Virus record (IMG/VR): IMGVR_UViG_3300023202_000034
Coordinates: 1 to 64,000 of that record
Source: a virus
Direction: 5' to 3' (one strand)
DNA length: 64,000 bases
Position numbers and translations under genes: made by a program
Notes under the pieces: model-generated
What the model saw: only the letters and a program-made list of their open reading frames with translations
The model's database searches: none
Told to the model about the DNA's origin: nothing
Shown here: piece after piece, positions 10,643 to 42,911 of the stretch
How positions within the stretch are numbered: the stretch's first letter is position 1
Layout of the letters: each line of letters begins with the position of its first letter

Positions 10643-12201
10643 TCAAGAGAGTCCGTAGTTGGATTGACGAATCAAGTCTCCTAGAACGTCAGATCTTCTT
10701 ACATACTTCACAGGTTGACCATACAGCTGACTCAGGATATCCGAAAGGATTTCAGACTCAGCCAGTTCAGCCATGATTTCCTTATAGTGGAACCGGAGCT
10801 GGTTCATGTTGTTGGCGTGGCACTTAACATCAGTTAATCAGGACGCTACTCCTGACCTTACTTCCCGTGGTAAGTCTCAAACTTTCGTCTGAGTGTCGGA
10901 CTATATCTTCACCCTCGATTTCTCGGTGGGGTGCAAGGCGCTTCGGCCCTCGCTTGAGTGGCCTATGGACATTATTTACCCAGTGGGTATCTCGTCCTAG
11001 TCTCTACACCTTCCAACGTGTTACCACACTGGCTTGGCACGGGATTGGCTTAGGTGTTACCCCTTAGCGTCCCCCGTTTTCACCTCGTTTCATCAGCCTA
11101 TTACTAAGCTGCGGAGCCTAAGATTGACTCATCATGGATACACACAACAGGGAATGGCTTATGGCGTAGGCAGTCATTGACGACCTTGGCCAGTGCCTTC
11201 AGGTGATCAGAATCCAGTGCTTCCAGATCTGCGAAGGTCGCATCATCCAGAATCCGGATATCTGCCATCTTGCTGGTTTCATAACGGCCTTTGAGAATAG
11301 GTACCAGTTCCTTGGTAGTTGCACAGAACTGCTTCTGTTGGCTCTCACCAGTGGCACGTTCCAGTAAGATGATCTCAATGGATTTAGTAGCCCATTCCAT
11401 CAGGTGGCGATCGTAGTTGCATCGACGGATCAGACTCCGTAGGACATACGCATCTATGGAGTGGATAACATTTGCCACGTTGCTTAAGCCAGTCTCTTTA
11501 CCTACGTTCTCCTTGTATCTGTAAGTAAAGGTTGCGTGATCCAGTTCGTCCACTTCAATCCGCTTCTCTACCACATCCATGACTTTCACATGGGCATGGT
11601 AGTTGTCTGGCAGTACCCAGCTGTGAGACAGGGCATAGGGTTGCCAACTTTCCAGCAGATCTTGTAGTAGCTCACAAGCTCCCGGAGCCATTTTCCACAT
11701 GGCTTTGTAGAAGGCATTTAGCTCAGGAGTGTCCTCACCAAAGATCAGCTTTGGTTGTTCTTTGGAGCCATATAAAACCGTCATCGTCGCTTTCTTTACG
11801 TGATCACGCTCACTGGCAGGCAGGTGAGGTACCCACTTGCGCATGATGTTGGTGCACAGCGTGTAGGCATCAGCACGCTGGTTTGGGTTAACCAAGCCAG
11901 TAGCCTCTGCACCACTATGACAGCCTGTGGTAGCTGACATGATCTGCATCCCACTACACACCGCATCAAAGCCAACCATGTGGCCAGTAGGTTCCCCTCT
12001 CTGAGCCTTACGGATGGCCTGCACCGCCTTGAAGTACAGCGGACGTTCCTTCCACTTACCAGTACGGGCATGGCCCAACTGTTCCAATTGCTCAAGATTC
12101 TGTTCAGCCCACTCAATACGTGGTTCAAAGTTCTCTTTATCTAGTCCCCACTGGTTTGCTGCGTCAATCAACAAGTACTCATACCCTGTAAATTCTTGCA
12201 T
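10643..12201 (-). CDS. N4 RNAP2-like RNA polymerase subunit, split by a group I intron
   Basis: This is the catalytic subunit of the phage's middle-gene RNA polymerase, related to T7 RNAP and to N4 RNAP2 (404 aa). It has two exons, 11127-12201 and 10643-10827, giving 1260 nt and 419 aa. Motif A is VGFDAVCSGMQ with the catalytic Asp near 79. Motif B is KKATMTVLYGS near 136-146. Motif C is HDE at 356-358. Joining GATGAGT to TTAAGTGC restores HDEFKCHANNMNQL and then a helical C-terminus ending SNYGLS. The uninterrupted frame instead reads HDESILGSAA and stops. It works with RNAP1 encoded just upstream. Confidence 0.9.
10828..11126 (-). mobile_element. ORF-less group I intron in RNAP2, directly after the catalytic HDE
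   Basis: A 299-nt intervening sequence begins after exon base U (GATGAGT) and ends in G (AACTGATG). It contains GATATAGTCC (10898-10907) and an upstream GACTAGGAC (about 10995-11003), the P3/P7 core signature of group I introns. The GATATAGTC element is also present in the two larger introns of this phage. No ORF longer than a few codons is present, so if mobile it depends on an endonuclease elsewhere. Removal restores the frame exactly. Confidence 0.85.
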
Positions 12202-12450: not shown

Positions 12451-12652
12451 TGCTGATCAGCTCCAACGTTTTGACGTATTTGATTCGATCTTCAAGCCAA
12501 AGGACTTGCCCTCGAATTTCTTGAACATCCCGATGATTGAAGAAACTGGTATCCATATCGTTGATGCAGCGTAACCTGCGTGCTTCTAACCACGCAGAAT
12601 CTCGCTGTAACCAAAAAGAAGGTATGTGTACTTCAGTTGGTTGGGACTCCAT
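12443..12652 (-). CDS. small hypothetical protein overlapping RNAP1 3' end
   Basis: A 69-aa protein from ATG 12652, preceded by GGAG 7 nt upstream, starting MESQPTEVHIPSFW. It overlaps the last 20 nt of RNAP1, which suggests translational coupling. A longer frame exists upstream but would be entirely inside RNAP1 and is rejected. It is Trp/Arg-rich (DSAWLEARRLR). Its function is unknown. Confidence 0.65.
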   Translation of the reverse strand: MESQPTEVHIPSFWLQRDSAWLEARRLRCINDMDTSFFNHRDVQEIRGQVLWLEDRIKYVKTLELISNG

Positions 12653-13544
12653 CGACAATCTCCTGTTCAGCGAACTCCAGCATCGCTTTCTTGAACGCTG
12701 TGCCTTGCGTAGAGATGTGGTATCCCTGCGCGTACATCCGGCCTCGCTTGTCGTACTTGTGGGTGAGGTAAATCTCCCCTGTTTGCTTGGCAATCATCAG
12801 GTAAAACCGATAACTGGCAAGCTTGAAGTTCGTCCATTGTTTCTGTTTCTCAACAGTATCAATGTCAAACGTGGGTTCTTCTTCGATGGTACTGAGGAAG
12901 TTGGTATCAATGCGCAACGGTGTCTGGTTCTGCTTGTTCAGAACATCAAGGCACACGTCTTCGTTGTGGTGGTTTCGAGGGCCCAAGATCACACTGTCGT
13001 CGTGCGTCAGGTAGGCAGATTGCTTGTTCTTGGTCAGGTCTTTAGGACAGCACACCATGGGTGGCAGATACTGGGATTGCTGGATATACCCAATGAGCTT
13101 GCTGCTCAAAGGTATACGGCTCTCGATCATCAAACTGGCATCCACAGATGCTTTGGTGATATCAAAAACATCGGTCATGCACAGGACTGCCATGATCTCA
13201 GCAATGGTCTTGATACCATCTTCCCGGTCACTGAATTGCAGCCGGCCAGCCAGCTGTGCTGTCACACTGGTGAACAACTCAGGGTACTGACAGTAAGCAG
13301 AAGCAATGAAACACTGCATGACCAGATCTTCCAGATCCAGTTTCTGCAACTGAGCAAGTCTCTTCTCCTTGGATTCGTAATACGATTGCACCATCCAATG
13401 TTCAAGCCTGGCAACACCTTCAGCCAGCTTGTCCATCATCTCGGGATTCTCTTCAATCTCCTTGCGAATGTACTTGTCAATGAACTTACGGCTGAACGTG
13501 TATTCATTGACTAACTGAATATCAACAGGACTCATCATTCCCAT
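12633..13544 (-). CDS. N4 RNAP1-like RNA polymerase subunit
   Basis: A 303-aa subunit corresponding to the N-terminal/promoter-side half of a T7-type RNA polymerase, as N4 RNAP1 (269 aa). Near the C-terminus it carries THKYDKRGRMYAQGYHISTQG, the DxRGR block that in T7 RNAP precedes motif A. Motifs A-C are in RNAP2, so the polymerase is split between these two genes. The start at ATG 13544 is supported by CGGAGAG five nt upstream, and the frame extends 18 nt further without a better signal. A terminator at 13561-13590 separates it from the early gene before it. Confidence 0.85.
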   Translation of the reverse strand: MGMMSPVDIQLVNEYTFSRKFIDKYIRKEIEENPEMMDKLAEGVARLEHWMVQSYYESKEKRLAQLQKLDLEDLVMQCFIASAYCQYPELFTSVTAQLAGRLQFSDREDGIKTIAEIMAVLCMTDVFDITKASVDASLMIESRIPLSSKLIGYIQQSQYLPPMVCCPKDLTKNKQSAYLTHDDSVILGPRNHHNEDVCLDVLNKQNQTPLRIDTNFLSTIEEEPTFDIDTVEKQKQWTNFKLASYRFYLMIAKQTGEIYLTHKYDKRGRMYAQGYHISTQGTAFKKAMLEFAEQEIVDGVPTN

Positions 13545-13607: not shown

Positions 13608-13898
13608 CTATTGCTGCACTTGGCTTGCAGCCCATGCAGCCGCACGTTCAAGCGTATGGCCATGACAGCGTTTAGGTGCACAGAAGCACACCAGATCCTT
13701 ACCATGCAGGGCTGCAAGGTCTTGGACACTGACGCTGCCACTATCAATCTGACTGACTAACATAGCCTCGTATTTCTCACAGACCTCGTCACGATCACCG
13801 TCCCGCCCAATCACAAAGGGGTTGCCCCAGCGGGAACCACGACCGATATAAATTGCGCCTTGCGGAATACCAGAGACGCGTTTATTTAAGACAGACAT
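13608..13898 (-). CDS. DUF4326 family protein
   Basis: A 96-aa protein whose GAIYIGRGSRWGNPF...KYEAML...LHGKDLVCFCAPKRCHGHTL matches the DUF4326 pattern (WGNPF, LVCwC.p..CHgd.L). The conserved Cys/His cluster suggests metal or nucleotide binding. The biochemical function is unknown. GGAG lies 8 nt before the ATG. A candidate hairpin promoter is at 13932-13946, about 35 nt upstream. Confidence 0.8.
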   Translation of the reverse strand: MSVLNKRVSGIPQGAIYIGRGSRWGNPFVIGRDGDRDEVCEKYEAMLVSQIDSGSVSVQDLAALHGKDLVCFCAPKRCHGHTLERAAAWAASQVQQ

Positions 13899-13931
13899 AG
13901 GAAATCTCCACAGTTAATTGATCCCACAGCA

Positions 13932-13946
13932 GCGGCCCATGGCCGC
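13932..13946 (-). promoter_or_regulatory. candidate virion-RNAP early promoter hairpin 1
   Basis: The coding-sense sequence is GCGGCC-ATG-GGCCGC followed by TGCTGTGGGATCAATTAA. The perfect 6-bp stem with 3-nt loop and the downstream TGNNRTGGRA block recur at 14421, 14637, 15269 and 15775, each ahead of a small early gene. N4 virion RNAP recognises 5-7-bp stem, 3-nt loop hairpins, so these are the natural candidates here. Confidence 0.65.
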
Positions 13947-14004
13947 ATGGCAGGGAGCAACAGGCACTGCCTGGGCAAGAGACGTATTCGGAAGGGAGAA
14001 AAAC

Positions 14005-14026
14005 AACAGGCACCCCGAAGGGTGCC
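14005..14026 (-). terminator. UUCG intrinsic terminator after 14038-14370 gene
   Basis: The coding-sense stem GGCACCC-TTCG-GGGTGCC (7 bp with the stable UUCG tetraloop) is followed by TGTTGTTTTTCTCCC. It is a textbook rho-independent terminator. Confidence 0.85.
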
Positions 14027-14037
14027 CGATGGGAAGA

Positions 14038-14370
14038 TTACTTCTTGGCGAGGAACGCCGGCTTGCGCTCAACTTTCTTGGTCACATCCACATAGGTGGA
14101 CGCTTCAGCCAGCGCTTGAAACAACGTCTTCAGGTTCTCAGGCTTCTCATCCAAGAACGCAATAACGTCCTTGTGATCTTCGTTGTCCAGCTTCAGCCAC
14201 GCGGTGGAGAGCTTGACGTTGAAGGTAGAACCATCTTCCTTCTGCATCTCCAAGTTGAAGTTGATCGCACGATCAGACTTCTCGAAATTGCCACGACCAT
14301 TGCCAGAAGACTTGCCATTGAAAGAAGCAACGTTGGTGTTTTCTTGCTGGGATTGCATCATAACTGCCAT
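14038..14370 (-). CDS. early hypothetical protein
   Basis: A 110-aa protein, Asn/Ser/Gly-rich at its N-terminus (MAVMMQSQQENTNVASFNG), then a predicted beta-strand region (RAINFNLEMQKEDGSTFNVKLSTAWLKL) and a basic end. It is unrecognised. It is a monocistronic early unit with a hairpin promoter candidate at 14421 upstream and a UUCG terminator at 14005 downstream. The layout suggests a host-takeover-type gene, which is an inference from position only. Confidence 0.7.
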   Translation of the reverse strand: MAVMMQSQQENTNVASFNGKSSGNGRGNFEKSDRAINFNLEMQKEDGSTFNVKLSTAWLKLDNEDHKDVIAFLDEKPENLKTLFQALAEASTYVDVTKKVERKPAFLAKK

Positions 14371-14420
14371 GTTTAATACCTCGATATTGGTTTGAATTTG
14401 GACATAGGTAGTCCATACCA

Positions 14421-14435
14421 GCGGCCCTTGGCCGC
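14421..14435 (-). promoter_or_regulatory. candidate virion-RNAP early promoter hairpin 2
   Basis: The coding-sense sequence is GCGGCC-AAG-GGCCGC followed by TGGTATGGACTACC. It is the second copy of the GGCC-stem triloop plus TGNNRTGGA element, 50 nt upstream of the 14038-14370 gene. Confidence 0.65.
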
Positions 14436-14468
14436 CAGTCAGTTCAGGTTTACACAGGGAAAGGTGTG

Positions 14469-14600
14469 CTAGTTACTGCCTACCGCAAGAACGGAGTCAC
14501 CACAGCACGGGCAATCACCCTCAGAGAGAACAAATATAGCATCGGTGTAATCCTCACGCCAAGAGCAGCCACAGGTTTGACAGGTGAATACATAAGTCAT
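14469..14600 (-). CDS. small zinc-ribbon-like protein, 43 aa
   Basis: Translation from ATG 14600 gives 43 aa starting MTYVFTCQTCGCSWREDYT and ending in ...CPCCGDSVLAVGSN. Two Cys clusters (CQTCGC and CPCC) spaced about 20 residues apart form a zinc-ribbon-like arrangement. CGGAG lies 8 nt upstream. It has its own upstream hairpin promoter candidate (14637-14653). It is too small for most ORF callers. Its function is unknown, and nucleic-acid or protein binding is plausible. Confidence 0.7.
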   Translation of the reverse strand: MTYVFTCQTCGCSWREDYTDAIFVLSEGDCPCCGDSVLAVGSN

Positions 14601-14636
14601 GGATATATCTCCGAGTATCGGGAACAGTCCCATGAC

Positions 14637-14653
14637 AACGGCCTCTGGCCGCT
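14637..14653 (-). promoter_or_regulatory. candidate virion-RNAP early promoter hairpin 3
   Basis: The coding-sense sequence is AGCGGCC-AGA-GGCCGTT (7 bp with one G-U) followed by TGTCATGGGACTG. It is the third copy of the repeated promoter-like element, located 37 nt upstream of the zinc-ribbon gene. Confidence 0.65.
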
Positions 14654-14773
14654 ATGCACCAAAGCCGTGCATTATATGTAGACACCTACATGTTTCTTTT
14701 CATAAACGTAAAGCATTGTAAAACGTGCTAACTCATTGAAATGGCAATACCTCGAAAGAATGAATGAATGGGA

Positions 14774-14795
14774 TTTGTGAGATATGTCTCACAAA
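14774..14795. promoter_or_regulatory. 22-bp palindrome, operator-like
   Basis: TTTGTGAGA-TATG-TCTCACAAA is a perfect 9-bp inverted repeat with a 4-nt spacer, in the 233-nt untranslated stretch between the terminator at 14818 and the gene at 14600. On the minus strand a TATAAT box lies about 100 nt further downstream. It could be a repressor or activator operator, or an RNA hairpin. It lacks a T-run, so it is probably not a terminator. Confidence 0.4.
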
Positions 14796-14810
14796 GAGTG
14801 TCTGACATAA

Positions 14811-14835
14811 AAAGACAGACCACCCGAAGGTGGTC
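14811..14835 (-). terminator. UUCG intrinsic terminator after TM-protein gene
   Basis: GACCACC-TTCG-GGTGGTC (coding sense, 7 bp) is followed by TGTCTTTTTATG. The stem begins at the stop codon of the gene at 14834-15028. Confidence 0.85.
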
Positions 14836-15028
14836 AAAGTTTGGTCACACGAGACTTGGCATCCAGTACAGACTGGTTCAGCTGCCTCTGGAGCTTAAGC
14901 TCTTTCTGGTATTCACGACGTTCGATGTATGCACACACACAGAACACCACCAGACAGCCTACACCAAGGACTACTAAATCAGCGGGAGTGAGCCACCCCA
15001 AAGACAGGAGTGGCTTTGCTTCCCACAT
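14834..15028 (-). CDS. small membrane protein
   Basis: A 64-aa protein with one clear transmembrane helix (LVVLGVGCLVVFCVCAYI, about residues 18-36), followed by a highly charged helical tail (ERREYQKELKLQRQL). It is coupled to the upstream gene by a TGATG overlap. It is an early-expressed inner-membrane protein of unknown function. Superinfection exclusion or takeover is possible but not shown. Confidence 0.65.
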   Translation of the reverse strand: MWEAKPLLSLGWLTPADLVVLGVGCLVVFCVCAYIERREYQKELKLQRQLNQSVLDAKSRVTKL

Positions 15029-15213
15029 CAGCAGGTACCAAAGCGAGTAGGACGAACGTAGTCATAGGAGACTGCGTAATTGAGGTCGTCTGTCTCATGG
15101 GTCTCGTTGAAGTCTTCCAGTTCAACTCTCTCAAGATTGTTGATATGGAGGACTGCACCAGAATCATCAAGAATGGTGATGTGATAACGGAGTTCAGAAG
15201 TAGGATTTGCCAT
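15028..15213 (-). CDS. small early acidic protein
   Basis: A 61-aa protein from ATG 15213 (MANPTSELRYHITILDD), with GGAG 9 nt upstream. An upstream in-frame ATG at 15264 exists but lies next to the hairpin promoter and has no clear ribosome-binding site. It is acidic and beta-strand rich. It is unrecognised. Confidence 0.6.
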   Translation of the reverse strand: MANPTSELRYHITILDDSGAVLHINNLERVELEDFNETHETDDLNYAVSYDYVRPTRFGTC

Positions 15214-15268
15214 GGGATAGTTCTCCACTAGGTATTGGTTGAATGAGAGAAGGTTTCTCTCCATCCCA

Positions 15269-15283
15269 GTGGCCTTTGGCCAC
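15269..15283 (-). promoter_or_regulatory. candidate virion-RNAP early promoter hairpin 4
   Basis: The coding-sense sequence is GTGGCC-AAA-GGCCAC followed by TGGGATGGAGAG. The outer base pairs differ from copies 1 and 2 but covary (GC/GC to GT/AC), which supports a paired structure. It precedes the 15028-15213 gene. Confidence 0.65.
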
Positions 15284-15518
15284 AAGAGTATCGGTAATGT
15301 ATGGCCATGCTTCGCATGACCTACTCAGCCTATCGGCTTCGTATCGGTACGAGGATTGAGAGAGTTAAGGTATCGGAATTGGAAATGGGAGATGAGATCA
15401 ACAGACCAAGCAGTGTATTCACTCAGATTTCCCTCACTCTTATTCTCATAAGGATCTGACTCATCCCCTCTTGTGCAGGGTGATAGGTACTAACTCCCCT
15501 TGTGTCATGTCTGTAGTA

Positions 15519-15544
15519 AAAAACTAGACTCCCCGAAGGGAGTC
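15519..15544 (-). terminator. UUCG intrinsic terminator after 15550-15741 gene
   Basis: GACTCCC-TTCG-GGGAGTC (coding sense) is followed by TAGTTTTTTACT. It is a strong rho-independent terminator that makes the first early gene a separate unit. Confidence 0.85.
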
Positions 15545-15549
15545 AGAGG

Positions 15550-15741
15550 TTAGCTGTTAGTCATCTCAGCTAGGCGCTTGGCACGCTCGTCTTCGAGGTC
15601 TGTGATGTAGGCATCAGTGGACTTCTTGACGAACTTACCGGTGGACTCGAATGCCTCAGCATACTCAGCTGTACCATTGGCAACAGCTGTTACTGAACGG
15701 AAGAGTGCAAGTACGAAGGTCTTGGTAGCAGTGCGGATCAT
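15550..15741 (-). CDS. first early gene, small hypothetical protein
   Basis: A 63-aa protein, MIRTATKTFVLALFRSVTAV at the start, an amphipathic or weakly hydrophobic N-terminal helix followed by a charged helix (TDLEDERAKRLAEM). TAGGAG lies upstream. It is the minus-strand gene closest to the divergent region and sits behind promoter-like hairpin 5, so it is likely to be among the first genes expressed. Its function is unknown. Confidence 0.65.
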   Translation of the reverse strand: MIRTATKTFVLALFRSVTAVANGTAEYAEAFESTGKFVKKSTDAYITDLEDERAKRLAEMTNS

Positions 15742-15774
15742 GGTGATCTCCTATGATTAATTGATTCCACAACA

Positions 15775-15789
15775 GTGGCCTCTGGCCAT
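15775..15789 (-). promoter_or_regulatory. candidate virion-RNAP early promoter hairpin 5
   Basis: The coding-sense sequence is ATGGCC-AGA-GGCCAC followed by TGTTGTGGAATCAATTAATC. The downstream flank matches copy 1 over about 14 bases (TGTGG.ATCAATTAA). It is placed upstream of the first early gene. Confidence 0.65.
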
Positions 15790-16575: not shown

Positions 16576-17268
16576 GTGGATGCCTTAACCATTGATCAGT
16601 TTAAGCAGGCCCTTCCTGCAAATCTGAAGAAGTCGGTTAACCAAGAGTTGATCGATCAGATTAATACCAAGCTGAATAACCCTGATATGTATGAGACCTA
16701 CCGGGATAATCTCCTGGGGTATGTGCATGTGATGAAGGAGGGGAAGTTCAAGGTCTCCAGTTATATTGATGCGGTGAAGTACGTCAGTTTTAAGCTGATG
16801 GGTAAAACCAACATCGATGCATTCTCAGTTACTTTCCCCGACAAGATTGCCAAGTGGCAAGCCAACGGTGTGGCCAGTAAGGATATTGCCTCCTATGTCA
16901 CGGCGTACAACAAGTCGAAGCTGGTCAATCTGATCTATGAGCAGACCCTGACCCCTTTCTGGGTGTTGAACCAGGATATCTACCAACGGGCTATCAATAC
17001 ACAGTGTGAGCTGATGGAGCATGCACAGAGTGAATTGGTACGTACCCAGGCTGCGAATTCTCTGCTTACCCAGTTGAAGCCGCCCGAAACCCGGAAGGTT
17101 GAACTGGATATTGGTATGAAGGCCGATAGCTCCATTGATGCCCTACGTGCCGCTACCCAGGCCCTGGCTGAGCAACAACGGGAGATGATTCAGAACGGTG
17201 GCATGAATGCTCAGGAAGTGGCCCACAGCGGGATCTTGATTGAAGAAGGTGAGGTTGTAAATGAGTGA
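16576..17268 (+). CDS. terminase small subunit (N4 gp69 position)
   Basis: A 230-aa protein immediately upstream of, and overlapping by 8 nt, the large terminase. This is the usual position of the DNA-recognition subunit. I chose GTG 16576 because GGAG lies 7 nt before it. The in-frame ATG at 16546 has no ribosome-binding site. The sequence is helical and charged with a Gln-rich region near the C-terminus (ATQALAEQQREMIQNGG). Assignment is mainly by synteny with N4-like phages. Confidence 0.7.
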   Translation: MDALTIDQFKQALPANLKKSVNQELIDQINTKLNNPDMYETYRDNLLGYVHVMKEGKFKVSSYIDAVKYVSFKLMGKTNIDAFSVTFPDKIAKWQANGVASKDIASYVTAYNKSKLVNLIYEQTLTPFWVLNQDIYQRAINTQCELMEHAQSELVRTQAANSLLTQLKPPETRKVELDIGMKADSSIDALRAATQALAEQQREMIQNGGMNAQEVAHSGILIEEGEVVNE

Positions 17269-32009: not shown

Positions 32010-35000
32010 ATGGATATAATGGATGAACTTGGTTCCCTTCTTAACGATAAAAGCACGCCTCTTGATCGCGTAATACAACGGCGGAATCAGAAAGAGCAAG
32101 ATGTTATTGATGCCGCGTTTAAAAACGTTGAAGCCCTGGATCGCATACATAAAGCCAACGAACGTCGGTTGCAGCCGGATGCCCAAGTAGGTGCACTGGG
32201 CACAGACTCTGATACGGTTCGTTTAGGTGTCGGTGGTGCAATGAGTGGTACAGGTTCTGTGCTTGCAGCTCCTGGCTGGATACTGGACCAGGCCGGTCAA
32301 CTTATTGAATCTGGTTTAATGGCAGCAGGTCTGGAAGATCAAGTACGCGCAGTCAACCAGAAGTTTGTTGATTGGGGTATCTCCGCACCCAGTGAGGCCT
32401 TCAAAGGTGTAGGCGGTTGGCTGAAAGAAGGCGGTCAAGAACTCCAGAAAGCCGTGGATGCTTCCACACAATACTCCTTTGACCAGAGTACACCTACTGG
32501 TGACATCACCGATACGTCCAGTTGGTCATTGGGCGAGAACCCTTCTCTGGAAGGTTATGGTTTGCAGCTGACGAAGATCCTGGGGGAGTTTGCTCCGCAG
32601 GCAGCAGGCCTGGTAGCCCGAAGTCCAGAGAAAGCCATGCAGATCATGGGTGCTATTGGTGGTCTGCAAGCCGGTGAAGGTCAAGCCTCTGACACCGTGG
32701 ATGCCATTATGCAGATGGATGAAGCCACGCTCACAGAAGCTTCTGACCTGTACCGGGAACTGCGCGAAGACACCCCAGAACTTACCCACGAACAAGCCCA
32801 GCAGGAAGTTGCACGTACCGCAGGTGCTGCGTCTTTCATGGGGGGTGCTTTGGTAGGTACAGCGGGTGGTGCAGCCACCGGTTATATCCTCAAACCTCTT
32901 CAAGGCAAACTGCAAGGCAACGTTCTGGGACGTGCTACAAAATCCGTAGGTCTGTCTGCCGGCGAAGAAGCTCTGCAAGAAGTGGGCGAGACCGTTACCG
33001 GACGTGCAGCAAGTAATCTGGCTGCCGGTATGGACCGAGACCTGACCGAAGGTACTTTCGGTGATGCGGTACTGGGTGGTTCCTTTGGCGGTGGTTTGGG
33101 TGCACTGGGTACCACGGCCGATGAAGTAGGACGTATTGCTGAGAAAGTCTCAGCAGCCATGCCTCAGACTGATTTCAGTACCAAAGAGAAAGACATTGTT
33201 GCGGCAGCAGAGTCTGGCAACATCGATAAGTTCCTTGATCCAGAAGACAAGAAGAACTACTCCCCCCTGAATGCCCTTGGCGCCATGGTCATTCGTGCCC
33301 GTCGTGATGATGTGCCGGAAGCTGAAAAGCGTGAACTGAAAGCTTCTATGCAGAACATGATCACCACGCTGGAGCAGGATGCCGTCAAACTGCAACGCCA
33401 GATTGATCAGCATCTTCCTGAAACTATTGAGTCCACGCGGCAGAAACTTCAAACCCGGGAACAGAAGCTGGCAACAGCCGAGACTGAACAGGAACGTGTT
33501 CAGCTACGTGATGACATTGAGTTCCTGAAAGAATCCCTGGATGCCATTGAGAACGTTGATCCCAAGCGCATTAAAGCCATGGAGGCTGAGCTTAAGGGGA
33601 TCAACTCTCAGATCAGTGAAGCTCAGGCCATGTTTTCCCAGGTCCCAGGAGCAGAGGCCACTGCAGACGATGTGGATGCCCTGAAAGCCACTGCCGGCAT
33701 TACCCCAACAGATGCACCGGTATCGTCTACAGAACGTACCCAGGCCGCTAAAGAGCTGACCATAGTGGCTATGCAGAATCCGGATTTGCTGAGTACACAG
33801 GACGTTGAAACCCTGGTAGGGGATGACACCAATGGCTTGTCAGAAGATGACCGACAGTTCCTGCGTACTCTGTCCCAAGCACAGCTTGCCGCGAATCTGG
33901 CTCAAGACATGACCGGAGCACGCCGAGGCGTCATGCAAGGCACAGACGGTTTTATAGGCATTCGCCAGTATCAAGCACGCATGGCCAATGCTGTTAGGGC
34001 CAAAAATGACACGGTGGCCAAAGCCCAGCTCACTGGTTTGCGCAAGTTCCGGGAAAGTCATGAAGCCAAGGCTAACGTATTTGAGAAGGCACTGGAGCAA
34101 ACCAATAAGACTGGTAAGCCGGTGATTGTTGCCCGGGGCAAAGGACACACTGATTGGAAAATCACCCAGCGTAAGTCGTTGACCGATACTTTCCGGAACT
34201 TCGGGGCTATCCGTATTCGCCCAGACTCTACACGGTTGGTGGCTACCGTTGCACAAGAGAGGGAAGCTCTGAAGGCCGCTGAAGCCATGTTAAATGCAGC
34301 CTATACCTTGGGCTTCTCTCAGAACGCATCCGTCACAGAACAGCCGGAGGCTGTCTCCGACACGCCAGAATCCACTGAATCTCCAGTAGCAGAGGAAACC
34401 GTCAATGAGTCAGAGCAAAGCGAAGCGCCCGAACCGGAATCCGTGGAAGCAACACCAGAAACGTCTGAAGCAGAGCCAGAGCCGACGCAGGCAGCAGAAC
34501 CTGTTGCAGAGCCCACACTCAGAGAGCGGGTTGAACAACCTGAGTCAGGTACTGACGGAGAGGTAGAGGCTGAGCTGGAACCGGTAAACCCGGAACCTGA
34601 ATCAGAGGTACCGACCGAGGCGGGCGAAGTCCGCTACGAGGAAGGTACCTTGGCTGTGTTTAAACAAAAAGCAGCAGCAATCACCGGCAAGTTAACCGAT
34701 GAAGCCTTCCGTAAACTCAACCTGGTTCGGCAGTACTTTACCCAAACCAGTAAGAAAGACTCGGATGTGACTGAACGGCCCTTGGTAGTTCAGAAGGATT
34801 TCCTGTCTGCGTTGATTCAGGATGAATCCGTTGCCGATCTGTTCGTGGATGCACGACGCTACGGTAGTTTTGACGGTTCTGGTTTGTCTGAAGCGCAGTA
34901 TGCCGCCATACGTGACTTTGCATCCAAGGCAAAAGACTGGAACGAATATCTGGAAACAGAACTGATTAACTACGATATCAAGGAACAGTTCTACTATCGT

Positions 35001-38000
35001 GATCTGTTCCACCATCTGCGTGATGGTCAGCCAACCGAGGAGAACATCAAGACAGCGATCTCTTATGCGGCATACTCTTGGCTGATTGATAACGCCAGCA
35101 GACCAGCACTGGCCACCGACGAAGAGATCAATACCATCCTGCATCGTCGTCCGGAACACGAAGTCATAGACACTGAGCGGGCTGAGTTTGGTTATATCGG
35201 CACCTCGGACAAGTTGGTGATCAATACGCTGGGTCAAAAGGTGGTTCAGGCATTAGGTATTCGTGGTACCAAGGATACACCAGCTAACCTGGTGTCCCAG
35301 CTTGAGTCGTCTTTGGGTGTCTACGCTATGCAGTTGCTGGCGGAACAAGAGTTGGTTGAGCGTCACCAGGTTACGAGTGCTTCGTTCTCCAGGGAACCCG
35401 GTGATGCAGACGACGCGACCATCTCGGGGGACTATGTTACACACCCGTTTGTTCGTCTGGCTCGTAAAGAGAACCTCAAGCCGGTTGACGTAATTGAAGC
35501 CATTGGTGTAGCCAACCGTAATACTCAGAGTATTCTGAGCCACCTTATGGGTGTGGAGTCTGGCTCTTTTGAACCGGAGTTTGTGGAGCCTGAATTTAAC
35601 CAGGCGTTCACCAAAGGCACCAAGCAACGGGTACCCAAGCGACAGCAGAAGATTGAAGCCAAGAAAGGTAAATACGCCTATCAGGTACGCAGCACCATGT
35701 TTGGTTTGTGGGATGCACTGGACCTGGGTACCAAACGAACCATCGTAGGTGTAAAGGATCTTGACAACAAAGCCGTGCACAAGGTCAACAAGCTGAGTGC
35801 TGAAGGATTCAACGAAGGCCTTGACCGTGAGATTTTCCTGTTCGACGAATTCGCCAGCAAGGAAGAGCACCGGAACCGTCCGTTCTGGTTAATTGGTAAT
35901 ATCTGGAAGCAGCAACGTGTAGGTCTGAAGAGTAACACCATCAACCCGCAAGCCAGCAAGATCCATCGTTTCCTGGTTTCCATGACAGGATGGAAAGTGT
36001 CTGTAGACACTCGCCTGGATTCACCCAGTAACCGGATGTTCCGACTGAACGTAGCTACTGGCCTGGGTATCAAGACGGATAAACAGGCTGTAGAGACTTC
36101 TCTGAAGCGACTAGATGAGAAGCTGAATGACAATCCAATCTTGCTGGATGCTGTAGAGGTCATTAAGCAGAATCTGCTGGGCGAACCACTCTCCGAAGCA
36201 GAGCAGGCTACCCTGGTGGAGGCAGTCAGGGTGGGCGGTGAAGCCATGCACACGATGGATGCTCTGTTGGGTCTGGCACAGTGGGAGCTGGCCGTTGATA
36301 ACGGAGAATCCAGTTTTGAAACCGATATGATGCTGGAAATCGACGGTGTTACCAACGGCCCCATGCTGGCACAACTCCAGTTGGGTGCAGCACCTTCTGC
36401 CGGGGAACTGAACGAGATCCTGAACAAAGGTGGCATGTACGAGCTGGGCAGTGATTACACCAACTTCAATACCTGGAAAGAAGAAGCCAAGCAACCTGAC
36501 CTGTACGAAACCCTGGCCAAAGACATTGCCGAAGCAATGCAGGCGGTGATTCAGGGAGCCGATGCCTGGAAAGCACAGAACTTTGTTTCTCTGAACCGCT
36601 TCATGGACGGGCTGTTTGACGCTAACAGTAAGAAAGTGACCATCGGACGTAACGCGGTGAAGACTCCGCTTACAGCCATGGTGTTTGGTTCTTCAATCAA
36701 CAACGCCATTAAGAGTATGGCGGAAGAGTTTGTTCAGGGTATCTACGATCGAATTGAAGCAGATGCCAATTTACCAGAAGGTGAACGTTCTGCTGCAACC
36801 AAAGAAACCCTCAAGCACATCAACGCACTGTTGAAACCTGGTTTCAAGAAAGGGGTTACCCCACTCTCTGAGAACATGACGACTGATCAGTTGCTGGAGT
36901 TCACCTTTGATAAGGAGCAACTGAAAACGATCAACGACATGTTCCGCTGGAACGTTGGCAAGCATGTTGAAGGTGTGATGGAACATCGCTTTGGTTTGTT
37001 CATGGGACGTAGAAGGGAGCTGAACCGGGGTGCACAGTTGGCCTTCTACCTGTATGACACTGTGTATCAGTACTACCGTGAAAAAGTAATCAAGGAGTTG
37101 GTTAACTCTGGAGATATCCCGGTCAACGTAACCAAGAACGGTAACACACTGTATCGATATGACCTGACCTCAGCACAAGAGCAGTTGGTGGAGCAGCGTG
37201 TACGTGCGGCCATGCCTATGGTACATACCCCACTGTCCAAAGACAGCAAAGACCTGGGTGCTGGCTTGTTCATCGGCAAGACTGAGCGCAGTGTGGCAAA
37301 GGATGCAGACACAGCCTACACCCAGAAAGTGGAATTCAAAAAGCGTAAAGATAAAACACGGTACGTCGACGGCCGCGGCATGAAACGTCAGATGGTCGAC
37401 CCGGGTATAGCCACCCTGATCATGATGATTCACTCATCGGATAGCGCCATTTCTTCCTATGCGGCAGAACAGTTACAAGCCCTGAACATCCACGATGCTC
37501 ATGGTTTGAGTCTGAACGATGCAGCCGAAGGCGGAAAGAACCTGAACAAGGCGACGTATGAAGTCATGCGTGACTACTCGGCGCCATTGGAAATCCATGA
37601 GGCACTGGTTCGGACAATTCGTGGTTTGAAGTCGCTGGGTGAGGATCTGGTATCTGATCCGGAACTGCGTGAGCGGTTTGTTGCCTTGTCTCAAGAGCTA
37701 CACAAATCCAAACTGAACGGGCTCATTGAGCCGGTTGATGATATCAACCCAGATAACGGGGACGTTTTCCGGTACATCCTGAAGCAGACTGAACGTGCTG
37801 CGTTCGCTTCTGAGTACACCAAACTGCAGAACATGGCTCAGTCCAAAGCGTATAACCAGTACGCCTTTGAAGGTGGGGAATACTTAGTAACAGATGCAGA
37901 TCGTGCCAAAGCTTTGGAAAACCTTGATGCGTTGGATGCTCGTCCAGCTAACAAAGGTGACCGGGATCTCATGGAAGTTCTTTACTCGCTGTTCCCAGGC

Positions 38001-41000
38001 AATGAAGCCTACTCTGCAGAGATTGCGGCTGAGCGTGAAGCGAAAGCGATGGACCCTGAGTCTCTGGCTTCACAGGAAGAAATCGCTGCAGCACTGGACC
38101 TGTGGTTGGCTGACCTCAGTTCTGATGCCGTGAAAGAGCTTACTGGTAACGGTGTGATTGGTGAGGCCCTGATCCAGAAAGGTAGGAACCTCCGGTATAT
38201 CGGCCACCAGTTCAGCTTGCATGGAAACCTGAACCAGGTGTTGGAAGAGTATCTGGATGGTGAAGCCAACGACCCGTTTTCGGAACTGGCTACCTTCAAG
38301 AAGGAATTGATTGCCCGTCTGCGCAACTACTCAGTAAGCACAAAAGACGTGCGATCTGCACCGGCCTCTACCGTGTCTAACTTGATTGATGCGCTGAACA
38401 GTAACAGCGTGATTCAGGCCAATTCGGAGCTCTCTCAGGATCTGGTACTGGTGCAGCAAACGATCAACAGCGGTGTGTATGACGTTGTCGCCAGTATCGA
38501 AAAGATGCTGCCGACAGAACGTGCACAGCAAGTGCTGGCCACACTGAATCGTTATTACAACAGTGGTCGGGAACATCGGTTTGGGCTCCTGGGTGCACCA
38601 TACCTTTCTCAGGACTCGGAGTTGGTTGCGTTTCTGGAGAAGAACCCGCAGACGACCACCAAGGAATTGATTGGTGCCATGAAGTCGGCCCTGAAGAAAC
38701 GGAACAAAACGAGTGGACTGTCCCAATACGACCGCTTCATCAACCAAATGCTGAATCTGTTGTCAGGCTCGCTGCCAGGAGATACCAAGGTAGAACTGCT
38801 GACTGCGAACTCTGAAACCGCATTTGGTTACGCCTCCATGGAGATTGTGGAAGCATCGGCGGCATACTTGCCGGGAGTGGGCATCATGGTGAAAAACACC
38901 GATTTCCAAAACGCTTCCGTTACCTACGAAACCCTGACGCACGAGATGATTCATGCGGCGGTTGTGGGGATTACCCGCAAAGCATTGCAGGGTGGGACGG
39001 TTATCCGTGGGGAAGAGTTGGTCACCGAGCAGGTGGTAAGTGACGAAACGGTTCAACTGGTCAAAGAACTGGAAGCCCTGCACGGCGAAGCCAAGAGATT
39101 CCTGGAAGAGCAGGGCGGTGCTTTGGCAAGCCGTTGGGCCTATGCCACCAGCAACCTGGATGAGTTCATTGCCTTCGGTATGTCCAACCAGGATTTCCAG
39201 AATGACGTATTGAAGAAACTTACCGTTGCCGATAAAGGTCGGGGCAACAAGCTGATCGACGGTATGACTGCGTTCATCAACAAACTGGTGGGCATCCTGT
39301 TCGGTAAGAACGCGCCGGCAGATAAGCGCAATGGTTTGTACCAGATGGTGGCGAACACCACTGCCCTTATGAAAGCGGCTCGGGAAGACGCGCAGAAGAC
39401 GCGTGGTATGGAGCTTCCAAAAGGTAAGCCGGAAGTTATTGCCATGCAGGGGCCGGACCCATTGGAGGAAGCCAAGACACTGACCAATGAGCAGGTGTTT
39501 GATCGACTGGCGGGTAACGCGCTGTCAGCGGATCGTCAGACTCACCTCAAAGAACTGCTCAACAGTATTGTTGAGAAACTCCATGGGCCTATGGGTGCCC
39601 TGGGTGCTCAGTTGCGTCAGGAAGCTGCCTACGGACCGGAGGACCGCTACCTTGAGAACCTGGTGAATGGAACTCTGCCGTTCTACTCCCGGACCCTTGG
39701 GGCTGAGCTGAAGATGACTCAGGCTGAAGGGTTTGTATTGGAGCAGGTTGAAATGACAGTGCGTGAAGCCCTGAACAGTGACCGTGCTGCGTATGAAGGT
39801 ATGGCCAAGTTGTTCCGGGAAGCACGGACACAGATTCGTCCGGAAGATCTGCCGGCCGGCGCACACAAGTTTATCTTCACACCTCAGAAGCAGGACGGTG
39901 AATCCACCTCAGATTACCTGAGTCGATTTGCTGCCCTGTCCCTGGTGTACAAACCACTGAACGACAAGATGCAGTTTGCCACGGCAAAGACGGTCCCGAG
40001 CTTGCGAGGCAAAAAACTGGGTGAAATCGTCAAGACGCTCTTTGCCCGCATATTAGAAATCCTGAACGGAAAGATGACCAACACCTTTGCCGGTCAACAA
40101 GCGGATGCCAAGGCAGTCAGCCTGGTGCGTCAGCTGGTGAACAATGAGGCCAAGTACCGGGAATCCGCAGCACTGAGAAAACAAACCTTGGACAACGCTG
40201 AGAAGGGTGCTTTCCAGAAGCTTTCCGATGCAGCCAGGGAAAAGGCAACCCAGTTTGCGGAATCCAACCCGATTGCCAATAACAGTAACGTGTTTGTGCG
40301 TTCTTTCGGAGTGATAACTTCAGCTGTGGCCAATGACCGTGTGCGGGAACTGTTCGACGGATTGGAAGATGTCAGGAACAAGATCTATGCCGGCCAACGC
40401 CAGGGCATCTGGGCAGCAGTGGCTACGGAATTCAAAGGTGCCAATGAGACCAACCTGACCGCGCATCAGCTGTTGCGTATTGCCAAACACAATGAGCAGA
40501 CGCGTAAAATCGTTAAGGAACAGATAGCCAAAGGGGTACTGGAAAGCTTCGATCCAAACCACAAACTAACTGACCTGGAAAAGAAATCCCTGACCAAGGT
40601 GCTGTTGCGTACTGATATGACGGCACTGCTGGGTGATGGTGATTCTGGTTTGGGTACCTACGACCTGACGACGCTGACACGCATGGTTTCCGATGAACAA
40701 TTTCTGGATTCCGAGATCAAGAAACTGGAGAAGGCCATTGCCCGGGAGCAAAGTAACACCCGGTACTATGTGGCCCAAGCCAGAAACACCGGGTACTTCC
40801 TGGCAACGGGACGGAATGCCAGCGCCAACCTGATGCAGAACGCACATAGCATTGTGTACCTGACAGGTACCGGTAACAAACGTAACAAGCCCAGCTTTTC
40901 ACACGCAAAGACTCTGGAACCCATGGTGGATCGTCTGATCTCCCTGAACGCGTTGAAATATACCGATGGGGAACTGCGAGACGTTGCGGCCAATGTCATG

Positions 41001-42911
41001 AAACGTGAGCTGTCCCGGGGCACTGAAAGCGGTATCGAGATGGTTCTGAAAACGCATGAGCGGCTGAAGCGTGAAGCCATGGACAAGCTGTTTGATGACG
41101 GCCCTGCGTTGTTCCGTAAAGGCTACACCAAGGAAATATACGATCCGTACAAGGAGGTAGTACTGGCGCCGGTGAGTGAGCGGGACGATCTGATCAAGCG
41201 TGGGTATGTCCCAGGAGCTGTTCTGGAGCAAGATCCTGCGGACCCGGATCGTCACAATCCCAAGCAGTTGTTCGTGATGCACGATGCAGGGCTCAAGAGC
41301 CGAGTGACAGGAATCTATTCAAATACCGACATGCGGGTACGGGGTACCACCATTCACTCTGGTTTGCAGTCGGTGTCCGGTGAAGGGCTGGTCAGCGTCC
41401 GTCAGGATATGAATACTCAGGTTGCTGCAGCACTGAATTCAGATATCCAGGCATTGTTTACGGCACCGGATAATTACAATCCTGAGCGGGTAACCGGTGC
41501 CAGGATGGCACCTGTCGTCAACAACATGGGCCAGATTGTGAACTATCGGTACATGATGCAGGAGAAAACAAAAGACCTACTGTTGAACCGTAACAATGCC
41601 CTGGAAGAGATTCTGGGTGGTATGGCGGCCAACATCGTAGACAAGGTCTCCAGTCGGGAGCATAACAACCGTGCGGTTGAAGCCATGCATCAACAGTTCC
41701 GGGAAGAGTCTCCGTTACGTCCGCATGCGTTTGTTCGGGTAAGTGCAGAGAGTGAAGACCCTACCGTGCGTGAAGCATGGAATCTGATACCTGAAGGTAC
41801 CAAGCATCATATTCGTAAAGTGTGGGGAAGAAATGAAATGTGGGTAAGGGCAGATCTGTATGACCTGCATTTTGGGTACCGCAAGCTGAGCTTGACAGAC
41901 CCCTGGAAGGTGGCAGAGGACGAGCGTTCTGTCCAGCAAGCCATGGTGGTTGCGACGTTTGAAGCGTTCCTGGGTAAGAAAGCCGCAATGCGCCTGGCGA
42001 AGGCTGAGAACATTTGGGAGGAGTTGGTACGGGAAGTGAAAGATATCTGGGTGATCAAGAGTGTGGTTACCTTGATTGTCAACATCAGCAGTAACGTCAC
42101 TGAGTTGTTCTGGTTTGGGGTGAACCCACGCAACATGCTCCGGGATCACCGGGAAGCGTTGCAAGGTATCTTGTCATACCAGCGGGACTCCAACGAGAAA
42201 ATCCAGTTGGAGAACATGCTGGCGTCTGGTTACATGACTCAGCCCCCTGAAGAAATTCAGGCTCGCCTGGTTGAGCTGGAAGATTCCATTAACCGGAACC
42301 CAGTGAAGGAACTGGTCGATGCAGGCATCTTCCAAACCATTGTTGAAGACGTAGATGCAGAATCCAGTGATTACAGCTACAAGTCCAGACTGTTCCGGAG
42401 AGTTCAGGGGCTGACGGACAAGCTACCAGAGACAGTAACTGCTACAGGTAAAACACTCTATATGGCCCATGACACTCCGCTGTATAAGCTGATGTACCAG
42501 GGAACGTCTTTGAGTGACTTCACCGCCCGTTATGTGCTGTACAAGCACCTGACTACTCGTGATGTAGAACCTATGGCCAAGGAAGAGGCCATCCAGACCA
42601 TCGTAGACGCCTTTGTGAACTACGACATTCCGACACACAAGGGTTTACAGTACATTAACGATATGGGGATCATTCCTTTCACCAAGTACTACATCCGGAT
42701 TCAGAAGGTACTGATGACGTTGTACCGGGAGAACCCAGCCAGAGCATTGGCAGTAGCAACCTTTGGTTGGTTCTTCGACAGCATGGGTGTACTGACAGAC
42801 TCCGGTATCTGGAACAAGGCAGACAACCCACTGGGTAATGGCGCCTTTGACTACATTGATGCAGTAGGTGACATTGGTACAATCAAAGCAGCAATGTCTA
42901 TTGCAGGGTAG
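32010..42911 (+). CDS. giant virion RNA polymerase (N4 gp50-like, 3,633 aa)
   Basis: This is the RNA polymerase packaged in the capsid and injected to transcribe early genes. The T7-type catalytic centre lies in the middle: a DTR block (VDTRLDSPSNRMF) near residue 1330, motif A LEIDGVTNG near 1443, motif B RNAVKTPLTAMVFG near 1547 (R-x3-K-x7-FG), and motif C IHDAHG near 1827. N-terminal to it are Gly/Ala-rich hydrophobic helices (200-310) and a long acidic linker (about 775-890). C-terminal to it, near 2312, is LTHEMIHAA, a HExxH zincin-like motif with DEFIAFG further on. The C-terminal 1,200 residues are probably used for injection. N4 vRNAP is about 3,500 aa. Confidence 0.92.
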   Translation: MDIMDELGSLLNDKSTPLDRVIQRRNQKEQDVIDAAFKNVEALDRIHKANERRLQPDAQVGALGTDSDTVRLGVGGAMSGTGSVLAAPGWILDQAGQLIESGLMAAGLEDQVRAVNQKFVDWGISAPSEAFKGVGGWLKEGGQELQKAVDASTQYSFDQSTPTGDITDTSSWSLGENPSLEGYGLQLTKILGEFAPQAAGLVARSPEKAMQIMGAIGGLQAGEGQASDTVDAIMQMDEATLTEASDLYRELREDTPELTHEQAQQEVARTAGAASFMGGALVGTAGGAATGYILKPLQGKLQGNVLGRATKSVGLSAGEEALQEVGETVTGRAASNLAAGMDRDLTEGTFGDAVLGGSFGGGLGALGTTADEVGRIAEKVSAAMPQTDFSTKEKDIVAAAESGNIDKFLDPEDKKNYSPLNALGAMVIRARRDDVPEAEKRELKASMQNMITTLEQDAVKLQRQIDQHLPETIESTRQKLQTREQKLATAETEQERVQLRDDIEFLKESLDAIENVDPKRIKAMEAELKGINSQISEAQAMFSQVPGAEATADDVDALKATAGITPTDAPVSSTERTQAAKELTIVAMQNPDLLSTQDVETLVGDDTNGLSEDDRQFLRTLSQAQLAANLAQDMTGARRGVMQGTDGFIGIRQYQARMANAVRAKNDTVAKAQLTGLRKFRESHEAKANVFEKALEQTNKTGKPVIVARGKGHTDWKITQRKSLTDTFRNFGAIRIRPDSTRLVATVAQEREALKAAEAMLNAAYTLGFSQNASVTEQPEAVSDTPESTESPVAEETVNESEQSEAPEPESVEATPETSEAEPEPTQAAEPVAEPTLRERVEQPESGTDGEVEAELEPVNPEPESEVPTEAGEVRYEEGTLAVFKQKAAAITGKLTDEAFRKLNLVRQYFTQTSKKDSDVTERPLVVQKDFLSALIQDESVADLFVDARRYGSFDGSGLSEAQYAAIRDFASKAKDWNEYLETELINYDIKEQFYYRDLFHHLRDGQPTEENIKTAISYAAYSWLIDNASRPALATDEEINTILHRRPEHEVIDTERAEFGYIGTSDKLVINTLGQKVVQALGIRGTKDTPANLVSQLESSLGVYAMQLLAEQELVERHQVTSASFSREPGDADDATISGDYVTHPFVRLARKENLKPVDVIEAIGVANRNTQSILSHLMGVESGSFEPEFVEPEFNQAFTKGTKQRVPKRQQKIEAKKGKYAYQVRSTMFGLWDALDLGTKRTIVGVKDLDNKAVHKVNKLSAEGFNEGLDREIFLFDEFASKEEHRNRPFWLIGNIWKQQRVGLKSNTINPQASKIHRFLVSMTGWKVSVDTRLDSPSNRMFRLNVATGLGIKTDKQAVETSLKRLDEKLNDNPILLDAVEVIKQNLLGEPLSEAEQATLVEAVRVGGEAMHTMDALLGLAQWELAVDNGESSFETDMMLEIDGVTNGPMLAQLQLGAAPSAGELNEILNKGGMYELGSDYTNFNTWKEEAKQPDLYETLAKDIAEAMQAVIQGADAWKAQNFVSLNRFMDGLFDANSKKVTIGRNAVKTPLTAMVFGSSINNAIKSMAEEFVQGIYDRIEADANLPEGERSAATKETLKHINALLKPGFKKGVTPLSENMTTDQLLEFTFDKEQLKTINDMFRWNVGKHVEGVMEHRFGLFMGRRRELNRGAQLAFYLYDTVYQYYREKVIKELVNSGDIPVNVTKNGNTLYRYDLTSAQEQLVEQRVRAAMPMVHTPLSKDSKDLGAGLFIGKTERSVAKDADTAYTQKVEFKKRKDKTRYVDGRGMKRQMVDPGIATLIMMIHSSDSAISSYAAEQLQALNIHDAHGLSLNDAAEGGKNLNKATYEVMRDYSAPLEIHEALVRTIRGLKSLGEDLVSDPELRERFVALSQELHKSKLNGLIEPVDDINPDNGDVFRYILKQTERAAFASEYTKLQNMAQSKAYNQYAFEGGEYLVTDADRAKALENLDALDARPANKGDRDLMEVLYSLFPGNEAYSAEIAAEREAKAMDPESLASQEEIAAALDLWLADLSSDAVKELTGNGVIGEALIQKGRNLRYIGHQFSLHGNLNQVLEEYLDGEANDPFSELATFKKELIARLRNYSVSTKDVRSAPASTVSNLIDALNSNSVIQANSELSQDLVLVQQTINSGVYDVVASIEKMLPTERAQQVLATLNRYYNSGREHRFGLLGAPYLSQDSELVAFLEKNPQTTTKELIGAMKSALKKRNKTSGLSQYDRFINQMLNLLSGSLPGDTKVELLTANSETAFGYASMEIVEASAAYLPGVGIMVKNTDFQNASVTYETLTHEMIHAAVVGITRKALQGGTVIRGEELVTEQVVSDETVQLVKELEALHGEAKRFLEEQGGALASRWAYATSNLDEFIAFGMSNQDFQNDVLKKLTVADKGRGNKLIDGMTAFINKLVGILFGKNAPADKRNGLYQMVANTTALMKAAREDAQKTRGMELPKGKPEVIAMQGPDPLEEAKTLTNEQVFDRLAGNALSADRQTHLKELLNSIVEKLHGPMGALGAQLRQEAAYGPEDRYLENLVNGTLPFYSRTLGAELKMTQAEGFVLEQVEMTVREALNSDRAAYEGMAKLFREARTQIRPEDLPAGAHKFIFTPQKQDGESTSDYLSRFAALSLVYKPLNDKMQFATAKTVPSLRGKKLGEIVKTLFARILEILNGKMTNTFAGQQADAKAVSLVRQLVNNEAKYRESAALRKQTLDNAEKGAFQKLSDAAREKATQFAESNPIANNSNVFVRSFGVITSAVANDRVRELFDGLEDVRNKIYAGQRQGIWAAVATEFKGANETNLTAHQLLRIAKHNEQTRKIVKEQIAKGVLESFDPNHKLTDLEKKSLTKVLLRTDMTALLGDGDSGLGTYDLTTLTRMVSDEQFLDSEIKKLEKAIAREQSNTRYYVAQARNTGYFLATGRNASANLMQNAHSIVYLTGTGNKRNKPSFSHAKTLEPMVDRLISLNALKYTDGELRDVAANVMKRELSRGTESGIEMVLKTHERLKREAMDKLFDDGPALFRKGYTKEIYDPYKEVVLAPVSERDDLIKRGYVPGAVLEQDPADPDRHNPKQLFVMHDAGLKSRVTGIYSNTDMRVRGTTIHSGLQSVSGEGLVSVRQDMNTQVAAALNSDIQALFTAPDNYNPERVTGARMAPVVNNMGQIVNYRYMMQEKTKDLLLNRNNALEEILGGMAANIVDKVSSREHNNRAVEAMHQQFREESPLRPHAFVRVSAESEDPTVREAWNLIPEGTKHHIRKVWGRNEMWVRADLYDLHFGYRKLSLTDPWKVAEDERSVQQAMVVATFEAFLGKKAAMRLAKAENIWEELVREVKDIWVIKSVVTLIVNISSNVTELFWFGVNPRNMLRDHREALQGILSYQRDSNEKIQLENMLASGYMTQPPEEIQARLVELEDSINRNPVKELVDAGIFQTIVEDVDAESSDYSYKSRLFRRVQGLTDKLPETVTATGKTLYMAHDTPLYKLMYQGTSLSDFTARYVLYKHLTTRDVEPMAKEEAIQTIVDAFVNYDIPTHKGLQYINDMGIIPFTKYYIRIQKVLMTLYRENPARALAVATFGWFFDSMGVLTDSGIWNKADNPLGNGAFDYIDAVGDIGTIKAAMSIAG

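Follow-up and report, generated by a model that had tools for sequence, protein, structure and literature searches.

Among polymerases that recognize an extruded DNA hairpin, the virion RNA polymerase (vRNAP) of phage N4 is, to our knowledge, the standard example and the only one for which the residues and bases involved in hairpin reading are known. The conserved block and the start of its promoters have been described, as has the rule that the template loop reads 5'-G..A-3' with a central purine; the 5' G and the 3' A of this loop form a sheared pair, and the polymerase contacts positions -10 and -11 in the loop and -8G in the stem (PMC4496689). Hairpin promoters were predicted by inspection in the Pseudomonas phages LIT1, LUZ7, and PEV2 (PMC3715699), and such promoters have also been predicted in CB1-like phages (PMC6027278).

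The window analyzed here comprises 64,000 nucleotides (positions 1 to 64,000 of IMG/VR record IMGVR_UViG_3300023202_000034) of a viral genome of 72,964 bases. The genome is that of a schitovirus: it encodes a giant vRNAP with an N4-type polymerase domain, the small and large subunits of an N4-like RNAPII, a portal, a head protein, a DNA primase, and an exonuclease. Two group I introns (Rfam RF00028) were seen on the minus strand, one (10876-11136) at the end of a truncated frame of the RNAPII large subunit (11104-12201) and the other (56538-56799) upstream of a ribonucleotide reductase gene (52802-55957). An intein-like insert carrying a LAGLIDADG domain splits the gene of the terminase large subunit (17261-19876, plus strand). 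The vRNAP (32010..42911, plus strand; polymerase domain encoded at about 34722-38021) has 3,633 amino acids and contains no cysteine; cysteine-free vRNAPs have been reported for LUZ7 and LIT1 (PMC3715699). The structure predicted for its polymerase domain (mean pLDDT 90.3) matched those of N4 mini-vRNAP, including the promoter-hairpin complexes, with Z scores of 28-29 (29.4 for mini-vRNAP) over approximately 970 residues, while T7-type enzymes gave scores of 20.7 and less, well under that of N4 mini-vRNAP. On this prediction, the domain shares the fold of N4 mini-vRNAP. An exact-peptide search for near relatives of this vRNAP found none; a profile search yielded one that is 63 % identical (L142), on a contig that ends before the early region.

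A preliminary description of the window had listed five repeated GGCC hairpins with a conserved flank as candidate vRNAP promoters. All five are present at the places given: exact matches to GGCCNNNGGCCNNTGNNRTGG were found at 13924-13944, 14413-14433, 14630-14650, 15261-15281, and 15767-15787, in each case on the minus strand. These are also the only matches in the entire genome, and a reversed-pattern control gave none. The core GGCCN3GGCC has seven copies in the window, where 0.74 would be expected; the remaining two copies (44087 and 47832) lie outside the early region and lack the flank. Five hairpins genome-wide combine a stem of at least 5 pairs with a 3-nt loop and with TGG at the offset seen in the elements, and these are the five elements themselves; simulated genomes gave a mean of 0.8. 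When the full motif is considered, the probability that the five elements arose by chance is negligible. The stem has six Watson-Crick pairs in three elements and five in the other two, in which the sixth pair is a G.T wobble (element 3, at 14637) or an A/C mismatch (element 5, at 15775). With this 5-6-bp stem and a 3-nt loop, all five fall within the N4-type range of a 5-7-bp stem and a 3-nt loop, and the loop-closing pair is C:G in each of them. The outer pairs had been said to covary. This holds for one pair (C:G in three copies, T:A in two); with the five copies alone it does not reach significance, 108 of 500 shuffles being equally good. Because one pair only covaries, and not significantly, covariation among the five copies is a weak argument by itself; the case for a putative hairpin rests on the family comparison presented below.

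The early block on the minus strand follows the order element, small gene, terminator, next element. Element 5 (15765..15789), the predicted first early promoter, consists of the hairpin TGGCC-AGA-GGCCA (15776-15788) and CTGTTGTGGAA, with a predicted start near 15768; its gene (15550..15741) specifies 63 amino acids without a family match and is followed by a terminator at 15544-15527. Element 4 (15259..15283), made up of GTGGCC-AAA-GGCCAC (15269-15283) and TGGGATGGAG, has its predicted start near 15262 and serves the gene MANPTSEL... of 61 amino acids (15028..15213), which is overlapped and followed by a 64-amino-acid ORF (14834-15028) and has a terminator at 14835-14818. Element 3 (14628..14652), with the hairpin CGGCC-AGA-GGCCG (14639-14651), TTGTCATGGGA, and a predicted start near 14631, serves a gene for 43 amino acids with CxxC pairs (14469..14600). 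No terminator was called between this gene and that of element 2 (14411..14435), in which GCGGCC-AAG-GGCCGC (14421-14435) is joined to TGGTATGGAC and the start is predicted near 14414. The gene served by element 2 (14038..14370; terminator at 14028-14007) codes for 110 amino acids without a family match, and its place matches that of the "RNA polymerase ssDNA-binding cofactor" gene of Kosakonia phage Kc283. Element 1 (13922..13946), with GCGGCC-ATG-GGCCGC (13932-13946), TGCTGTGGGA, and a predicted start near 13925, serves a DUF4326 gene for 96 amino acids (13608..13898) that is followed by a terminator-like site (13596-13570); the gene of the RNAPII small subunit (N4 gp15-like; 12633..13544) lies downstream. 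The DUF4326 gene sits between the last early promoter and RNAPII-1, while in the relative L007 (IMG/VR 3300036466_000366) the equivalent promoter directly precedes RNAPII-1. It had been proposed that each element stands 30-60 nt upstream of a separate gene, which is right. The distance from predicted start to start codon is 27-49 nt for all five. Sigma-70-like sites in the early block were not above chance. The elements themselves were considered as terminators and rejected as such, since no T tract follows them and separate terminators exist; RTGG as a start codon was likewise rejected, being in frame with the downstream gene in two of the five cases only.

The early regions were searched for groups of three or more similar hairpins that share a TG at a common offset. 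In N4 this yielded exactly three T-N-C hairpins, which lie at 95, 564, and 4553, precede genes 1, 2, and 15, respectively, and have G at position 11. These coincide with the experimentally mapped vRNAP promoters P1-P3. In LIT1, hairpins were found where promoters had been predicted in the literature, upstream of genes 12 and 13. The promoter reading is in this way upheld by comparison, not by transcripts, with N4 P1-P3 and the LIT1 sites recovered by the scan; moreover, relatives carry like units before the same genes, with a loop that is lineage-specific. Judged from these comparisons, the five elements are very probably early promoters of a schitovirus that are used by the injected vRNAP, which is supported by their location exclusively upstream of early genes and on a single strand, by the alternating order of the early block, and by the cysteine-free vRNAP gene with its predicted N4-type domain. 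It is quite unlikely that RNAPII, the second phage polymerase, reads them as middle promoters or that both polymerases share them: although they adjoin the RNAPII genes, they are absent before the rest of the genome, the equivalent places in N4 are vRNAP promoters recovered by the same scan, and the middle promoters of N4 have been described as AT-rich (PMC4496689).

The likeness of the five putative vRNAP promoters to N4 P1-P3 includes a 3-nt loop closed by C:G, a stem of at least five pairs, a G at a fixed distance downstream, a homologous vRNAP fold, and a location upstream of early genes, among them those of the RNAPII cofactor and RNAPII. The window differs from N4 in several respects. 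Its template loops (CAT, CTT, TCT, TTT, and TCT) do not have the G..A of N4 and in four of the five cases have no central purine, so that the N4 template loop G-R-A stands against Y-N-T in the window. The -8 base is G in N4 and C in the window, since the second base from the loop in a GGCC stem is C; this stem base also varies among relatives. The distance from loop centre to start is 11 in N4 and 14 for the candidate start in the window, which is taken from the conserved TGG. There are five promoter copies as opposed to three, and their stem energies, calculated with generic DNA parameters, are -4.4 to -6.8 kcal/mol versus -2.4 to -2.7 kcal/mol in N4. The stronger stems may compensate for the absence of an unusually stable loop. 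In short, two N4 sequence rules (the template G-N-A loop and -8G) fail in the window, whereas architecture, position, and polymerase match. The elements are best read as working like N4 vRNAP promoters and as forming a new schitovirus loop class, rather than as strict N4 promoters.

The same architecture, a hairpin with a C:G-closed loop followed by a G at a fixed distance, is common to related early regions. It was analyzed in a sample of 76 non-redundant early regions homologous to RNAPII-1, taken from IMG/VR and from named phages. C:G-closed T-N-C hairpins occur 168 times on the early strand of these regions and 34 times on the opposite strand. GG at position 13 (numbered from the loop's 3' base) follows 107 of the 168 hairpins on the early strand and two of the 34 on the opposite one. 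The data set in which this distance was noticed is also the one used to test it; the opposite strand served as the control. In a test independent of pairing, sites were chosen by CTNCG and GG at 13 alone, with no stem requirement. Stem positions 2, 3, and 4 pair in 67, 64, and 63 % of such sites, respectively, versus 23, 19, and 28 % on the other strand, and pairing is about 30 % at most other offsets. All four types of Watson-Crick pair are present at each of the three positions. The pairing at CTNCG sites is strong evidence, of a comparative kind, that the hairpin has been selected as a structure, with the ends of the loop fixed. It also bears on the highly improbable notion that the elements are double-stranded DNA operators for a dimeric regulator. 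In the window genome they form almost perfect palindromes, with three bases between the arms and a stem that hardly varies, which would suit an operator, but an operator would conserve its arms; in the relatives, pairing persists through free changes of the stem bases, and it is the loop ends and the closing pair that stay constant. In addition, the flank, with TG or GG at a set offset, is present on one side only and so confers direction. Although the elements would fold as RNA and lie close upstream of ribosome-binding sites, it is hardly credible that they are 5'-UTR stem-loops or processing sites in an early transcript: the N4 model puts the start downstream of the hairpin and the hairpin thus outside the RNA, an Rfam search gave no family matches at the elements, and their N4 promoter homologues are DNA hairpins (PMC4496689).

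The search for hairpin sets described above for N4 gave such sets on the early strand in 39 of the 76 loci, N4 P1-P3 included, and on the other strand in one. The sole locus with a minus-strand set, L113, has three C-GTA-G hairpins in the opposite strand sense, at about 2738, 5245, and 5520. A first filter for a GC-rich inner stem missed three loci (L035, L036, and L042), in which the same type of element was recognized by eye. The window fits the broad schitovirus set, with five copies on the early strand, a C:G-closed loop of 3-4 nt, a stem of at least 4 pairs, and TG at 13-14. An exact search of IMG/VR for the motif of the window gave nine single matches; the contigs that carry them have no schitovirus proteins, and the matches are taken as chance.

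Most phages sampled have the N4-type loop T-N-C (template G-N-A). Among them is the type of Pseudomonas phages LIT1, LUZ7, and PEV2, which differs from the window in its T-A-C loop (template G-T-A) and in having G at 13; the LIT1 hairpins have the flank GGGTGG or TGTAATGG, close to the TGNNRTGG of the window, and PA152 has TGGAATGG. A 4-nt T-N-N-C loop is present in seven loci; these are scattered on the RNAPII-1 tree, where no fewer than five changes are required to explain them. An A-T-A or A-C-A loop is found in six loci of the Cbunavirus/Efbeekayvirus group, which form one clade. This non-template A-N-A loop (template T-N-T) of phages such as Kc283, the CB1-like L089, and pKP-BM327-1.2 is the nearest type to the A-N-R of the window. 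It differs from it in being ATA or ACA only, in having G at 13, and in stems such as GCGC, GTGC, and GCCC, and the vRNAPs of the group are 24-27 % identical to that of the window and sit on a separate branch of the tree. The A-N-R loop (template Y-N-T) was found in the window alone among the sampled loci. Its sister and nearest relative, L007, with an RNAPII-1 that is 75 % identical, has a T-N-N-C loop. Like the window, L007 has five elements before homologous early genes and an equal distance from the 5' stem arm to GG. Its hairpins read (A/G)GCC-TA(A/T)C-GGC(T/C) or GAGC-TATC-GCTC, followed by 7 nt and GG, and differ from those of the window in the tetraloop T-A-(A/T)-C and in having G at 13, as numbered from the loop's 3' base. 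In the window this G is at 14, one base beyond its usual place in relatives, which range from 11 to 13.

Copies in one genome have the same loop class, as expected if a single polymerase reads them all. Loop class clusters on the RNAPII-1 tree, with seven changes versus 13.5 after shuffling; labels for a few loci (L035, L036, and L042) were assigned by eye, and loci without a clear set were excluded from the tree. The loop sequence appears to be characteristic of a lineage and to change simultaneously in every copy. Loop classes, a fixed G distance, and concerted switches were not found described in those parts of the open-access literature that were searched.

The preliminary description had also proposed a new specificity for the giant polymerase. 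This is plausible in so far as the loop class and spacing are unique in the sample; the A-N-A loops are a partial precedent. Mapping of the N4 contact residues K114, R119, W129, D901, and R904 onto the vRNAP of the window by alignment was attempted; the N-terminal recognition element and the specificity loop were too divergent for confident alignment to N4, and they differ within the T-N-C group itself. The vRNAPs of both the window and L142 have an unusual specificity loop, "FKK"; nothing was concluded from this, because L036, which has T-N-C loops, has FKK too. On balance, it seems reasonably likely that the vRNAP of the window reads a hairpin with a template loop lacking the G-N-A fold of the solved N4 complexes, and that the loop code of the family (T-N-C, T-N-N-C, A-N-A, and A-N-R) and the start distance have undergone repeated switches, which affected every promoter of a genome jointly and kept pace with the polymerase. 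Such lineage-specific hairpin codes switching in concert are more interesting than the single finding in the window.

A mechanism modeled on N4 can be proposed. Negative supercoiling by host gyrase, with host SSB helping as in N4, would extrude the palindrome during DNA entry. The vRNAP would then bind the template-strand hairpin, with its 5-6 GC-rich pairs, 3-nt loop, and C:G closing pair, and transcription would begin at a set interval beyond the hairpin, close to the G that occupies position 14 as numbered from the loop's 3' base. The transcript would cover one early gene or a small operon, up to its terminator. In this process, the A-N-R loop (template Y-N-T) and the GGCC stem would replace the G-N-A loop that is read by N4 vRNAP. 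Natural promoter variants with repeated loop switches make the reading of the loop testable with natural polymerase-promoter pairs. A family-wide table would give orthogonal pairs of hairpin promoters and polymerases, as well as a simple route for annotating early promoters in schitovirus genomes.

Two further features were observed in the early regions. In 77 early regions of schitoviruses, a direct repeat, CCGATAY-N4-CCGATA, with a spacing of 11 (one turn of DNA), was counted 35 times, in single copy per genome and always on the early strand; the copy in the window is at 15331-15347 (minus strand). It is absent from the regions of N4, LIT1, and PA152 that were examined. The repeat often lies 25-76 nt upstream of one hairpin promoter and is possibly an origin or an activator site. 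In addition, a noncoding block of 45 nt is identical between the window (about 15295-15340, minus strand) and L226 (about 2787-2832), and the surrounding promoter hairpins differ in class between the two. The block contains the palindromes CATGC-GAA-GCATG and AGCC-GATA-GGCT.
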